Assembly: GCA_024763355.1 (NCBI GenBank)
Contig: JANTFR010000004.1
Location: forward strand, 1-40,082
DNA from: Anaerolineales bacterium
GTDB lineage: Bacteria > Chloroflexota > Anaerolineae > Anaerolineales > DRKV01
Reading direction: 5' to 3'
Length of the DNA: 40,082 nt
Translations under genes and position numbers: made by a program
Shown here: one piece after another, positions 22,036 to 39,337 of the stretch
Numbering within the stretch: the stretch's first letter is position 1
How the letters are laid out: the number at the start of each line of letters is the position of its first letter
Notes under the pieces: generated by a model
Databases searched by the model: none
Told to the model about the DNA's origin: nothing
Seen by the model: only the letters and a program-made list of their open reading frames with translations

Positions 22036-23088
22036 ATGTGGAACCTCCGCCAATTCCTCCTCCGCTACGCTTCCCGCTGGCCGTGGATGGCCGCCCTGAT
22101 GCTCTTGGGTGCGGTCATCGGCTGGGGGGGGGCGCGCCTGGCTTCTCCGCAGTATCGCGCCTCCGCCGAACTCTACGTCGGCCTGCACGCCTACCGCGCC
22201 CCGCAGGAGCAGAACCGCAATCCATCCTCCTACTATGATTTCCGCAATCTGGATGATTTCAAGAACTGGCAACTGGAGCAATTGAACCAGTTTGTGCGCC
22301 ACGACGAAATCGTGGCCGAGACGCTGGCACGTTTACAGGCCGAGGATGAATCCTGGCAGCAGGTTACGTCCGCCGATTTGCAGGCCATGCTCACCCCCCA
22401 GTGGCGCACGGTAGGTAAGTGGCGCTTGACCGCCACCGCGCCGGCGGCGCGCATGGCGGAAGAAGCCGCCGAAACCTGGCGCGCCGTTGCCCTGGATGCG
22501 CTGGATGCCGCCATGCAGTCCGCTGCCGAGGTGATGCGCCTGGATATGGCAATGCAGGCTACTGCCACCGCCCAGGCGGATTTGGCGCGCCGTACTGCCC
22601 TGCTGGAGAACGCTCGCGCCGCGCTGGAGAGTTGGCGCGCCGAAGCACAATCGCTGCCACCCGATGCTCCTCTCCCTCCCGAGGAACGTTGGCGCTTGCA
22701 GGCCCTGGCGGCGCAGGCCAGCGGTTTCACCCCTGCCTGGGAATCGCTGCTGAGAGATTTCCCACCCCCCGATGCGCCCCGCAGCGCAGTCCTGGCCTGG
22801 AGCGGGCGGGCGCTGGCCGCCGTGGAAGCGGAGCAATCCGCCATCCCTTCCCTGCAACAGGAGACACAGGCGCGTCTCGACGACCTGCTGGCGCAGTACG
22901 AAGCCGCCAACGCCGCTTCCTACGGCCTTTCGCTCAATCTCTCCCTGGACGGAATTTCCACCGTGCCGGTGCGGGCGCAAGCGGTACGCTCCACGGGGGC
23001 GTGGGCTTTGACGGGGGCTATCCTGGGGATGCTGGCGAGTATCCTCTTGTGGCTCGCGGCCCTGGGCGCGGAGGCTCCCGATGCGTGA
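22036..23088 (+). CDS. Wzz-like chain length determinant / polysaccharide co-polymerase
   Basis: MWNLRQFLLRYASRWPWMAALMLLGAVIGWGGARLASPQYRASAELYVG; long Ala-rich helical middle; C-terminal TM; no Walker motif. Confidence 0.7.
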   Translation: MWNLRQFLLRYASRWPWMAALMLLGAVIGWGGARLASPQYRASAELYVGLHAYRAPQEQNRNPSSYYDFRNLDDFKNWQLEQLNQFVRHDEIVAETLARLQAEDESWQQVTSADLQAMLTPQWRTVGKWRLTATAPAARMAEEAAETWRAVALDALDAAMQSAAEVMRLDMAMQATATAQADLARRTALLENARAALESWRAEAQSLPPDAPLPPEERWRLQALAAQASGFTPAWESLLRDFPPPDAPRSAVLAWSGRALAAVEAEQSAIPSLQQETQARLDDLLAQYEAANAASYGLSLNLSLDGISTVPVRAQAVRSTGAWALTGAILGMLASILLWLAALGAEAPDA

Positions 23089-24559
23089 GCGCCTGGGCGA
23101 AATCCTGTGGGCTGCCCTGCTGATTTCCCTGCCGGTGACCAGTTTCCCTTTCTTCCCCGGTGGGGTGGGAGGGGCGACGCTGGTGCGCCCCCTGGCGGTC
23201 TATCCCCTGCTTCTCCTTCTTCCCATCGTCATCCTGCCGCGCTTGTGGAAAGCCTCCCTGCCGCGTCCTGCTCAGCCCTTATTGGCTTTCGCGGTAGTTG
23301 CCACGGGGAGCACCCTGCTGGCGCTTGTCTCCCTCCAGGCAGGGGTACGCGGTGTGAGCGTCCAGGCCCGCGCCCTCCGCTCTCTGGCGACCCTGGGATT
23401 GGGGCTGGCGTTGTACTTCACCGTGGTCCTCTATCTGCGGGATGAGGCCGCTTTGCGCCGCTCCCTGCGCTGGCTGTACCTCGGCATGGCGCTGACGTTG
23501 GCCTGGGGGAGTTTGCAGGCCGTCTACATTTTGCATTTCAATCAGGACTATTTTGACCTGCTCGGCAAAATCCAGCGCTTTATTTCCACCCGCCCGCTGT
23601 TCGAGCGGCGCGTCTCCGGGATGACTTTTGAGCCGAACTGGTTCGCCGAGCAAATCGTCTTCCTGTGGATGCCGTGGCTGCTTGCTGCTGCCCTCACCCG
23701 GCGGAGCGCCTTCCGCTGGCGCTGGGGCGGCCTGATGGTGGAGCATCTTTTGATTGTTTGGGGCGCGGCGGTGACGCTTTTTACCTTTTCCCGCCTGGGA
23801 TTGGCTGCGCTAGGGGGATTGGCGGTACTTGCCGCGGGGATGGCAATCCCCTGGGGGAAGGCGCGCCGCCTGAAAGGGCGGAGGCTTCTCCTATGGGGAA
23901 CAGGCGTTTTTTTGAGCGGCGCGCTGGCCCTGGGGCTGGTCTTCACGTTGGGGCAGCGCAATCAGTATTTTTCCCGTTTGTGGCGTTACTGGACGAACCC
24001 TGAAGAGCGCGGCGGGCAGTCTTATCTGGAGTTCATCGCTTTCGGCCAGCGCATGACCTACTGGGAGACGGCCTACCGCATGTACGCCGACGCGCCCTGG
24101 CTGGGAGTTGGGCTGGGGAATTACGCTTTCCACTTTGGGGAGTACCTGCCTTACCGCTCGTGGCATCGCCAGCCGGAGATTGTGCGCCAATTGACGCCTT
24201 TGGAGGGCAATATCCGTCTGATTACCCCCAAGAATCTCTATCTGCGCTTGCTGGCCGAGACCGGCTTGCTGGGGACGACTTTCTTTGCTGTGTTCGTGCT
24301 GCTGCTGGCGCGACAGGCCGTACATCTGCGGAGCATCGGCGGAGAGGCGCGCTTCTGGGGCACAGGCGGGTTGTTGGGGCTGGCAGTCTTCGCATTTGCT
24401 TCGCTGTCTTACGATTCGCTGGCGCTGCCGAATATGTGGGTGCTCTTCGGGCTGCTGAGCGCGGAAAGTTTGCAAGTGGGGAAAGTGGGCAAGAGGATGG
24501 TGCGGCGTGCGACGACGAACGGCCTGACTACCCAATCACCAAACTACCCAACTAACTAA
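23081..24559 (+). CDS. O-antigen ligase/polymerase family membrane protein
   Basis: Multi-TM; SRLGLAALGGLAVLAAG; long loop with YWETAYRMYADAPWLGVGLGNYAFHFGEYLP...PKNLYLRLLAETGLLGTTFF typical of Wzy_C/WaaL proteins. Confidence 0.88.
   Translation: MRERLGEILWAALLISLPVTSFPFFPGGVGGATLVRPLAVYPLLLLLPIVILPRLWKASLPRPAQPLLAFAVVATGSTLLALVSLQAGVRGVSVQARALRSLATLGLGLALYFTVVLYLRDEAALRRSLRWLYLGMALTLAWGSLQAVYILHFNQDYFDLLGKIQRFISTRPLFERRVSGMTFEPNWFAEQIVFLWMPWLLAAALTRRSAFRWRWGGLMVEHLLIVWGAAVTLFTFSRLGLAALGGLAVLAAGMAIPWGKARRLKGRRLLLWGTGVFLSGALALGLVFTLGQRNQYFSRLWRYWTNPEERGGQSYLEFIAFGQRMTYWETAYRMYADAPWLGVGLGNYAFHFGEYLPYRSWHRQPEIVRQLTPLEGNIRLITPKNLYLRLLAETGLLGTTFFAVFVLLLARQAVHLRSIGGEARFWGTGGLLGLAVFAFASLSYDSLALPNMWVLFGLLSAESLQVGKVGKRMVRRATTNGLTTQSPNYPTN
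24464..24559 (+). repeat. Word arrays forming the last codons of the O-antigen ligase-like gene
   Basis: aaagtttgcaagtggggaaagtgggcaag...gtgcggcgtgcgacgacgaacgg...ctgactacccaatcaccaaactacccaactaac, translated SLQVGKVGKRMVRRATTNGLTTQSPNYPTN*. Confidence 0.75.
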
Positions 24560-24563
24560 CTTG

Positions 24564-24725
24564 CATTGCGGATAGGCCATTTCAGTCCACCGCGCAGAGC
24601 GGAGCGACCCTGAGCCTGTCGAAGGGGAGCGCAGTCGAAGCGCAGATTCCGGCTGTTTCGACTACGATTGCTGAGCAATCTCCGCTCAATGCGGGAGGCC
24701 ATGCTTTATCCGCAACTGAGATTAG
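24564..24725. mobile_element. MITE-like element, copy 1
   Basis: Ends ATTGCGGATA...TTTATCCGCAACTGAGATTA; ~160 bp; near-identical to 25519-25685; internal hairpin GATTGCT-G-AGCAATC. Confidence 0.8.
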
Positions 24726-24754
24726 GCAAGTGGGAAAGTTTGAAAGTATCCCCC

Positions 24755-25171
24755 TCAACTATCGTCTTCGCTGTTCGCAAATACATCGAGTGCAATTGCG
24801 TCTGCGGGGAATTCTCGCAGGATTTGTTTGTCCACCGTTACCACGGGAACTCTTAACGCTCGCGCCAGAGCCACAAATTCGCAGTCATAAGCCGAACACG
24901 TGCTTTCCTTAACCAACTGCAGCACGTCCATAGACGGCACTTCGTATTCCCTTCCTTCCATCAATCTCGCGGCTTCATCCATGATGCGGACGGCATCTTC
25001 AAATGACAGGATGCCTTTCCTGATGTAGTGTGCCAGGACGTTCTGCAATTCGCTTCGCCACAATCTGGGTGCAGCCCATTCAGAATCTTTCAGCAAGGCT
25101 TGCTCAGCCTGCCCAGACCGCTCGCTGCTCAGATACAGGTATCCGATGACGTTTGTATCCACGACTATCAT
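24755..25171 (-). CDS. PIN-domain toxin (VapC/FitB type)
   Basis: MIVVDTNVIGYLYLSSERSGQAEQALL...WRSELQNVLAHYIRKG...SAYDCEFVALARALRVPVVTVDKQILREFP; conserved acidic residues. Confidence 0.92.
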   Translation of the reverse strand: MIVVDTNVIGYLYLSSERSGQAEQALLKDSEWAAPRLWRSELQNVLAHYIRKGILSFEDAVRIMDEAARLMEGREYEVPSMDVLQLVKESTCSAYDCEFVALARALRVPVVTVDKQILREFPADAIALDVFANSEDDS

Positions 25172-25410
25172 GGCCGTCCTGTCGTCTTCGCGAGGTTAAA
25201 TGCCTCATCAGTGATGGGATGCTGCTTCGTTTTTTCGCGCAGTTGCCGTGCTCTGGGCAGGTAGTCTTCGGGTTGAACCCGACGGCTGCGGATTGCCCGT
25301 TCAATGCACAAGATGACTTCGCTGTTGAGGCTGCGCCGATTGATTTCTGCGTAGCGTTTCAGCTGGATGTACAGGTCTTCGGGGATGTTTTTGATAGTCA
25401 GGGTTGGCAT
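25168..25410 (-). CDS. Ribbon-helix-helix antitoxin (FitA/VapB-like)
   Basis: MPTLTIKNIPEDLYIQLKRYAEINRRSLNSEVILCIERAI; 4-nt overlap with the toxin gene. Confidence 0.9.
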   Translation of the reverse strand: MPTLTIKNIPEDLYIQLKRYAEINRRSLNSEVILCIERAIRSRRVQPEDYLPRARQLREKTKQHPITDEAFNLAKTTGRP

Positions 25411-25439
25411 GTCGCTACCTCTGAGGTGGTTCCGTTTTG

Positions 25440-25473
25440 CATCCATTATGGATGATGTCCGCTGTCTTGTCAA
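25440..25473 (-). promoter_or_regulatory. TA promoter with overlapping palindromic operator
   Basis: Minus strand TTGACA (25473-25468), 17-nt spacer, CATAAT (25450-25445); perfect palindrome CATCCAT-T-ATGGATG at 25440-25454 covers the -10. Confidence 0.75.
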
Positions 25474-25484
25474 GGGGAGTGAGA

Positions 25485-25516
25485 AAAGTTTACAAGTGGG
25501 CAAGTTTGAAAGTAGG
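25485..25516. repeat. Degenerate word array (AAGTTTACAAGTGGGCAAGTTTGAAAGTAGG)
   Basis: Same words as at 24464 and 25829. Confidence 0.65.
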
Positions 25517-25518
25517 AA

Positions 25519-25685
25519 ACCTGAATTGCGGATAAGCCATTGCAGCCCACCGCGCAGAGCGGAGCGACCCTGAACCTGTGAAGGGGAGCGTAGTCGAAGC
25601 GCAGATTTTGGGCGTTTCGACTACGATTGATGGGCAATCTCCGCTCAACGCGGAAGGTCATACTTTATCCGCAACTGAGGTTAGG
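25519..25685. mobile_element. MITE-like element, copy 2 (same orientation as copy 1)
   Basis: AACCTGAATTGCGGATAAGCC...TTTATCCGCAACTGAGGTTAGG; internal hairpin GTAGTCGAA...TTCGACTAC. Confidence 0.8.
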
Positions 25686-25717
25686 AAAGTTTGCAAGTTG
25701 GGGCTCTCTTCAGATTT

Positions 25718-25810
25718 GTGGGGGTAAGACTTCCGAGATTTTGACGAGAGCCGCTTCGGGGGCGAACATCGTCCCCCGGAAATCTCGGAAGTCTGTCTCT
25801 CCTACCCCAC
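25718..25810. repeat. Large inverted repeat
   Basis: AGACTTCCGAGATTT (25727-25741) / AAATCTCGGAAGTCT (25780-25794), with outer GTGGGGGTA/TACCCCAC and inner GGGGGCGA/TCGTCCCCC-like pairing. Confidence 0.85.
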
Positions 25811-25828
25811 AATTTCGCGTTGACCCCC

Positions 25829-25908
25829 AAGTTGGAAAGTGGGAAAGTGGGGAAGTTTGCAAGTGGGAAAGTTTGAGAGTGGGAAAGTCGGCGAGACTTC
25901 GGAAGTCT
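25829..25908. repeat. Degenerate word array (GGAAAGTGGGAAAGTGGGGAAGTTTGCAAGTGGGAAAGTTTGAGAGTGGG) ending in a small palindrome
   Basis: Direct reading; palindrome AGACTTC-G-GAAGTCT at 25894-25908. Confidence 0.8.
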
Positions 25909-34086: not shown

Positions 34087-35271
34087 TCAGGGGGCGGGGG
34101 GCAGGGCGGTGCTGGCCGCCGAAATGCGCTCGATAATTTCCGCCGCCTCGGCTTCATCTGCCAGGTGAACGGTGCCGTCGCCGTCGGCGTACACGGGGGT
34201 GAACTCGTAACCCAGGTATTGCGTTCCCTGAAAACGTATCGTCAACAACACGGATTGCTGATTTTTGTGGTCCCAGGTCTGGTCGAAAACGAAATTGCCC
34301 AGCCCGTAAAACACGGGTACGCCGGAGATGGTTTGTACGGCCTGCACCACATGGGTGTGATTGCCCACTACCAGGTCGGCCCCGGCTTCGACGGCCATTT
34401 GAGCGTACTTGCGCTGGTTCCAGTTTGGGGTGGATGTGTACTCCGGCCCCCAGTGCGGCATGAAAATCACCACATCCCCCATCTGGCGGGCGGCAGCGAT
34501 TGCTTGACGCAGATTGGTCTCAGTCAACGGAGCAATGCCGGGGGTATCTGCATCGGCAAAGGCCATCGGCTCGATTTCTCCCAGCGAGACGATAGCGAAA
34601 CGCACCCCCTGAATTTCCACCACCACGGGCTGCAGGGCCTCCTTCACGTTTTTCCCCGCTCCGACAGGCAGGATGCCGACCCTGTGCAGGTTTTCGAGCG
34701 TATCCAGAAAGGCGCGGTCCCCGCAAGTGTTGGAATTGCAGTTCTTGATGTGGTTGGTGGCGACGCTCATCACGTTGAAGCCCGCCTTGGCGAGGGCGTC
34801 GGCGTTGTTGCTGCTGCCCGTCAGCACGAAAGTCTCGATGCAGCCGGTCATGGGGGCGTGATCGCTGAGAGATGCGTTGAGCGTCCCGATGGTCAGGTCG
34901 GCGGATTGCAAGATGTCGCGCACTTCGGCGTAGATGTAATCCGCGTTGCCGCGGGCGTCCACTCCGGCCTGGACGCAGCGCCCCGGCACGATTTGGCCGG
35001 TGAAGAGCAAGGTAATCTCCGCCGGCGTGGGGGTGGTCGTGGGAGAAAGCGGCGTTGCCGTGGCGGCAGGTGTGGGAGGGACGATGGTTGAGGCGGGGAG
35101 CGGTGTTGCGCTGGGAAGCGGGGTGGGGGTAGATTGTCCCAACACGAAGACCCCTTCCGCGGGTTTGACGGTGGCAATCTCCGGCGGGGTCCCGGTGCGG
35201 GCAGATTGGCAGGCGCTCAGGAGCATCAGGGCGAGGGAGATGATGAGTTTGTGTGTTGGGAGGCGGTTCAT
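34087..35271 (-). CDS. CapA family lipoprotein (poly-gamma-glutamate synthesis-like)
   Basis: MNRLPTHKLIISLALMLLSACQ lipobox; T/P/A-rich linker; ITLLFTGQIVPGRCV...VMSVATNHIKNC...VIFMPHWGPEY...GADLVVGNHTHVVQ. Confidence 0.88.
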   Translation of the reverse strand: MNRLPTHKLIISLALMLLSACQSARTGTPPEIATVKPAEGVFVLGQSTPTPLPSATPLPASTIVPPTPAATATPLSPTTTPTPAEITLLFTGQIVPGRCVQAGVDARGNADYIYAEVRDILQSADLTIGTLNASLSDHAPMTGCIETFVLTGSSNNADALAKAGFNVMSVATNHIKNCNSNTCGDRAFLDTLENLHRVGILPVGAGKNVKEALQPVVVEIQGVRFAIVSLGEIEPMAFADADTPGIAPLTETNLRQAIAAARQMGDVVIFMPHWGPEYTSTPNWNQRKYAQMAVEAGADLVVGNHTHVVQAVQTISGVPVFYGLGNFVFDQTWDHKNQQSVLLTIRFQGTQYLGYEFTPVYADGDGTVHLADEAEAAEIIERISAASTALPPAP

Positions 35272-35445
35272 TGGTCGCGTTGGTTGCATCGGTTGCATTG
35301 GTTCATTGGTTACATTGGTTGCATCGGTGGCGTGGTGCATGGTTTACCGCCCGCGGTCTGTTGTCCGTCGTCTGTTGTCCGCCGTCTGTTGTCCATTGTC
35401 TCTCGTCCGTCGTCTGTTGTCCGTTGTCCGGCGTCCAGTTGCTGG
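35265..35445 (-). repeat. Degenerate word arrays (GACGACGGACAACAG words, then CAACCGATG/AACCAATG words on the minus strand)
   Basis: Plus strand ggttcattggtcgcgttggttgcatcggttgcattggttcattggttacattggttgcatcgg...gtctgttgtccgtcgtctgttgtccgccgtctgttgtccattgtctctcgtccgtcgtctgttgtccgttgtccggcg. Confidence 0.85.
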
Positions 35446-39285: not shown

Positions 39286-39337
39286 AATAATCTGAGTTGC
39301 GGATAAGGAAACGCCCCTATCCGCAACTCAGATTATT
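39286..39337. mobile_element. Collapsed MITE-like hairpin with perfect 20-bp arms
   Basis: AATAATCTGAGTTGCGGATA-AGGAAACGCCCC-TATCCGCAACTCAGATTATT; arm sequence matches the termini of the two 165-bp elements. Confidence 0.8.

Follow-up and report, generated by a model that had tools for sequence, protein, structure and literature searches.

The sequence analysed here, referred to as the window, is a stretch of 40,082 nucleotides from an Anaerolineales bacterium. It is contig C4 of a 2.76-Mb MAG, which comprises 285 contigs and is 91% complete; genome-wide counts are based on pattern searches and DNA searches. Between positions 23081 and 27700, the window contains, in this order, a Wzy_C O-antigen ligase gene (forward strand), a left MITE, a PIN/RHH toxin–antitoxin (TA) operon (reverse strand), a right MITE, and an endonuclease/exonuclease/phosphatase gene (reverse strand). 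Both MITEs are intergenic and lie in octamer-repeat-rich DNA between the Wzy-like ligase and the nuclease genes. The features of this region, including terminal inverted repeats (TIRs) and target site duplications (TSDs), are as follows.

24559–24722, forward strand: MITE copy 1 (left), 164 bp, with TIRs at 24559–24575 and 24706–24722
24726–24748, forward strand: octamer array AAGTNNNN, which lies 6 bp from the toxin stop and forms the toxin-side copy of a 23-bp direct repeat
24755–25171, reverse strand: PIN-domain toxin gene, 138 aa (Pfam PF01850, 1e-9)
25168–25413, reverse strand: FitA-like RHH antitoxin gene, 81 aa (Pfam PF22513, 1.3e-9)
25445–25473, reverse strand: TA promoter TTGACA-17-CATAAT, between the RHH gene and MITE copy 2
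25486–25514, forward strand: octamer array AAGTNNNN upstream of the TA promoter, which holds the second repeat copy (25492–25514) and in which MITE copy 2 is inserted
25513–25518, forward strand: TSD TAGGAA, left of MITE copy 2
25519–25681, forward strand: MITE copy 2 (right), 163 bp, both TIRs perfect to the consensus
25682–25687, forward strand: TSD TAGGAA, right of MITE copy 2
25684–25889, forward strand: octamer array, which resumes past MITE copy 2 (25684–25699 and 25829–25889)

A search for an empty orthologous site by way of the two neighbouring genes found none: a relative of the Wzy-like gene (L148, genome G003) lies on a contig that stops just beyond it, and the nuclease homologue of genome G002, 82% identical to that of the window, is cut off by a contig end.

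The antitoxin gene overlaps the start of the toxin gene by 4 bp, so that RHH and PIN genes are adjacent in one operon, and the nearest solved structure to the toxin is PAE0151 (2fe1). The promoter and an operator-like palindrome recur upstream of the majority of homologous operons that were compared, across many phyla, and the upstream similarity among these relatives visibly starts at the −35 box. The motif TTGACA-N17-CATAATGGTTCCATAATGGAACCATTATGG is strongly conserved upstream of the RHH gene in loci L019–L049 and L170–L172, again from many phyla. From its sequence, the operon is predicted to be a self-contained type II TA system with its own promoter. Homologues are widespread in many phyla, with Chloroflexi and Anaerolineales records prominent among the closest; no homologue of the toxin turned up in genomes G001–G003, which come from the same genus and family and are 59, 84, and 92% complete. 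A toxin search of plasmids returned two matches, both distant, and PADLOC gave no match for the TA operon.

The two MITEs are short, non-coding elements without a transposase, which are bounded by 17-bp TIRs with the consensus ACCTSARTTGCGGATAA. The original prediction of a PIN/RHH pair between two elements of like orientation was confirmed, and the predicted length of about 165 bp was close to the 163–164 bp found. They are not near-identical as had been proposed: the alignment gave 89.0% identity over 163 columns, with a longest exact run of 27 bp. Similarly, the ends TTGCGGATA described earlier are present but form part of the longer 17-bp TIRs. A 15-mer TIR core occurs 12 times in the genome, compared with no occurrence of the reversed control, and the MITE pair is well beyond chance. 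Only four full copies were detected in the 2.76-Mb genome by DNA search (E 1e-51 or better): besides the window pair, contigs C110 and C128 each carry a single copy. Further TIR-bounded relatives are present beyond these four. The solo copies adjoin a GxxExxY-like gene and a hypothetical gene (names read from translations rather than from a family search). The right MITE is 96.9% identical to the C110 copy, compared with 90.8% for the left MITE. Since the right MITE is closer to the C110 copy than to its left counterpart, the pair in the window are not mutual nearest relatives. Two side observations concern related sequences. The element core GGAGCGACCCTGAGCCTGTCGAAGGGGAGC (about 24597–24650) matches repeats in the order relatives G022, G026, and G038, independent of the MITE ends, and a 46-bp palindrome at 39289–39334 of the window joins two IS982-type ends in a back-to-back arrangement around a short middle and may be either a remnant or a minimal MITE.

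The parentage of the elements is indicated by their ends, which match those of complete insertion sequences (ISs) of about 972 bp from the IS982 family in genomes of the same order. Two of these were assigned with NCBIfam NF033520 (IS982 family, cut-off 130 bits), a 973-bp element in L126 with 283.9 bits and a 971-bp element in L125/L156 with 274 bits. These complete elements of 971–973 bp, in genomes G143 and G144, encode a 291-aa transposase; further IS copies are L157 and L158, and similar ends were seen on copies in G388 and G176. Two full IS copies are flanked by 5-bp duplications. Within the order, the 15-base TIR core was found in 18 of 400 genomes (G364 has 24 copies, G021 has 12), and TIR pairs bound short elements with differing cores as well as the complete 971–973 bp elements. 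Several IS982-type ends were seen in G021, G364, G146, and G027, where no IS982 transposase scored above the family cut-off. The search for an autonomous transposase with matching TIRs, suggested as a check on the original prediction, thus succeeded in the order but not in the window genome itself, in which protein and family searches that detect the transposases of G143 and G144 found none. Insertion sequences are often missing from assemblies. Judged by their sequence, the window elements are predicted to be IS982-derived MITEs.

The right MITE is flanked by the exact 6-bp target duplication TAGGAA. The solo copy on C128 likewise carries a 6-bp duplication, TAGATA, and exact 6-bp duplications were found at three other TIR-bounded elements. 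In total, the candidate TIR pairs number 28, including some spurious pairings, and 5 of these have an exact 6-bp TSD, compared with 0.4% when flanks were exchanged between elements; element ends were taken as ACC...GGT. Duplications of 4 bp (AGGA, AGAT) with ends AACC/GGTT were rejected, as ACC/GGT ends and 6-bp duplications give a better fit both to the IS982 copies and to the remaining elements. No target duplication is visible at the C110 copy. At the left MITE no TSD is recognisable (flanks ACTAACTA on the left and TAGGCAAG on the right), and its left TIR has three mismatches; its insertion is therefore less well documented, and recombination may have changed it, or it may be an older copy. 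Taken together, the 17-bp TIRs, the lack of a transposase, the TSDs, and the dispersed copies bear out the earlier description of the elements as MITE-like.

The same data bear on how the TA operon came to lie between the two elements. The original prediction was a composite, non-autonomous cassette, in which the MITE pair moves the TA operon as one unit and addiction selects against its loss. The geometry, with MITEs of the same orientation on both sides of the operon, is what such a cassette would show, and MITE-bracketed composite units are known (TIME-COMP; PMC4133298). In P. syringae, MITEPsy2 copies on a plasmid recombine at a frequency of 3.8 x 10^-3 when the TA systems have been inactivated; active TA systems make these MITE-mediated deletions about 50-fold rarer (PMC6354349). 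By analogy, the TA operon of the window could in principle be deleted by recombination between the direct repeats, with addiction acting against this loss; no deletion product of MITE–MITE recombination was seen, and the longest exact run available is the 27-bp one. Against a composite unit, the outer ends of the MITE pair, which had been singled out for a target duplication, share none (flanks ACTAACTA and TAGGAAAG differ), whereas the right MITE alone has a complete TSD. Furthermore, reading the sequence with the right MITE and one TSD removed shows the 8-bp octamer phase restored, as AAGTTTGA AAGTAGGA AAGTTTGC AAGTTGGG. The duplication at the right MITE, the unmatched outer ends, and the restored array thus argue for a separate insertion of the right MITE rather than a composite unit, and the fact that the right MITE resembles a solo copy more closely than its partner also counts against joint movement.

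The distribution of elements and operons points in the same direction. Two of the four genomic copies, those on C110 and C128, have no TA genes nearby, so the elements do occur independently of this cargo, but they are not abundant. Conversely, no paired elements or TIR pairs were found around 80 TA relatives in genome contigs and 5 in order-level relatives, which gives 85 TA relatives without paired elements. Both kinds of observation that were named beforehand as contradicting the original prediction were thus largely made, apart from a high abundance of the elements. Searches of the genome and of the TA relatives revealed no second occurrence of an element together with a TA operon. A composite cassette is therefore very improbable. 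The MITEs most probably represent independent IS982-type hops, with the TA operon between them by chance and not as cargo. An IS982-type transposase acting in trans would recognise the 17-bp inverted ends, and the MITE would insert with a 6-bp target duplication, as read from the right element and the solo copy. Two copies would have landed separately in the intergenic octamer-rich stretch, and the PIN/RHH operon would have been caught between them through chance insertion. Since only four full copies exist, two MITEs around one operon are a mild coincidence.

The elements might alternatively be retained as RNA structures that serve the neighbouring genes as a terminator or a processing hairpin. 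The earlier description of dense folding holds in that both elements fold more strongly than dinucleotide shuffles (z = −6.7 for the right and −3.6 for the left MITE), although only the right one has a perfect GTAGTCGAA/TTCGACTAC stem. This strength would favour a structural role, but it follows from the inverted ends and the palindromic core, and an Rfam search of the elements gave no match. The TSDs and dispersed copies show transposition, and the TA operon has its own promoter, so that we consider retention as RNA structures highly unlikely compared with independent hops of MITEs.

The TA operon itself may have a separate history, as it is directly flanked by the 23-bp direct repeats listed above, which are identical at 21 of 23 positions; the second copy lies about 18 bp upstream of the −35 box. 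One explanation, which we regard as possible but unlikely, is that the TA unit from promoter to toxin stop (about 24749–25482) inserted into the octamer array with a target duplication, while the MITEs came independently. This reading is compatible with independent insertion of the MITEs, and it agrees with the position of the repeats directly outside the unit and with the start of similarity among TA relatives at the −35 box. Locus-specific direct repeats, unrelated in sequence to one another, were found at 8 of 75 TA relatives and at 1 of 137 control genes (p = 0.001), and an alignment-based test gave 6 of 74 compared with 1 of 100 (p = 0.024), in which inverted repeats never appeared. The geometry is tight in L046 and L052, where repeat copies lie 6 and 2 bp past the toxin stop. 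However, the octamer array is common in the genome, and its presence on both sides of the TA operon therefore need not reflect duplication: three consecutive octamer units have 83 genome matches compared with 45 for the reversed control pattern. In addition, the test was designed after the pattern had been seen, the counts are small, the repeat distances vary, and the search for an empty site yielded none. The first control, random intervals, had given 11 of 78 compared with 2.2%; gene-matched controls replaced it, which weakened the signal. Because of its post hoc design and the small counts, we offer the target-duplication lead as a hypothesis only.

Degenerate arrays of the AAGTNNNN type occur at about 35 places genome-wide, including 206–258, 24726–24748, 25486–25514, and 25829–25889 in the window; in L002 (C110) such an array apparently lies inside an open reading frame (KWASGKFAS). 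Further short-period arrays of the window at 1970–2039, 35265–35331, and 35332–35436 comprise arrays of the AACCAATG type, in opposite orientations, and a 14-bp array of the GTCTGTTGTCC type. A broader version of the insertion hypothesis, which we deem quite unlikely, is that a compact RHH–PIN unit (−35 box to toxin stop) would move between genomes alone, duplicating about 20–200 bp of target in the way proposed for restriction–modification genes, with octamer arrays as one landing site and the MITEs as later passengers. If insertion of the TA unit were true, it would constitute a travel route for small TA operons that themselves encode neither transposase nor integrase.

These results place a family of unlabelled repeats from this lineage in IS982 through matching ends and target duplications. 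They also illustrate that repeats flanking a TA operon need not signal a mobile cassette, and that the duplication pattern tells independent hops from a composite move. Compared with IS982-family ISs (NF033520), the window elements have the 17-bp inverted ends ACCTGAGTTGCGGATAA in common but lack the transposase, and their core, about 130 bp long, is unrelated. The IS982-derived MITE of Cardinium cOegib is likewise short and transposase-free (PMC9769881); it is about 240 bp long and present in many copies in a genome that also carries the intact parental IS, whereas the window MITEs are 164 bp long with four copies, and the parental IS was not seen in the genome. TIME-COMP units also have miniature elements on both sides of other genes, but transpose whole (PMC4133298), whereas the outer ends of the window pair share no target duplication. 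On plasmid pPsv48C, directly repeated MITEPsy2 copies likewise surround a segment, whose deletion is opposed by TA systems (PMC6354349). Those copies are 228 nt long and recombine at high frequency, in contrast to the window MITEs with their 89% identity and short exact runs. Insertion with long target duplication has been described for restriction–modification genes (PMC3874152), which the direct repeats around TA relatives resemble, while the 23-bp repeat of the window belongs to a common array. Finally, the TA operon has the same layout as PIN–RHH type II systems of the FitAB/VapBC type, with an RHH gene upstream of and overlapping the PIN gene and a promoter with an operator-like palindrome, and is an ordinary member of this FitAB/VapBC-like group, which has relatives in many phyla.
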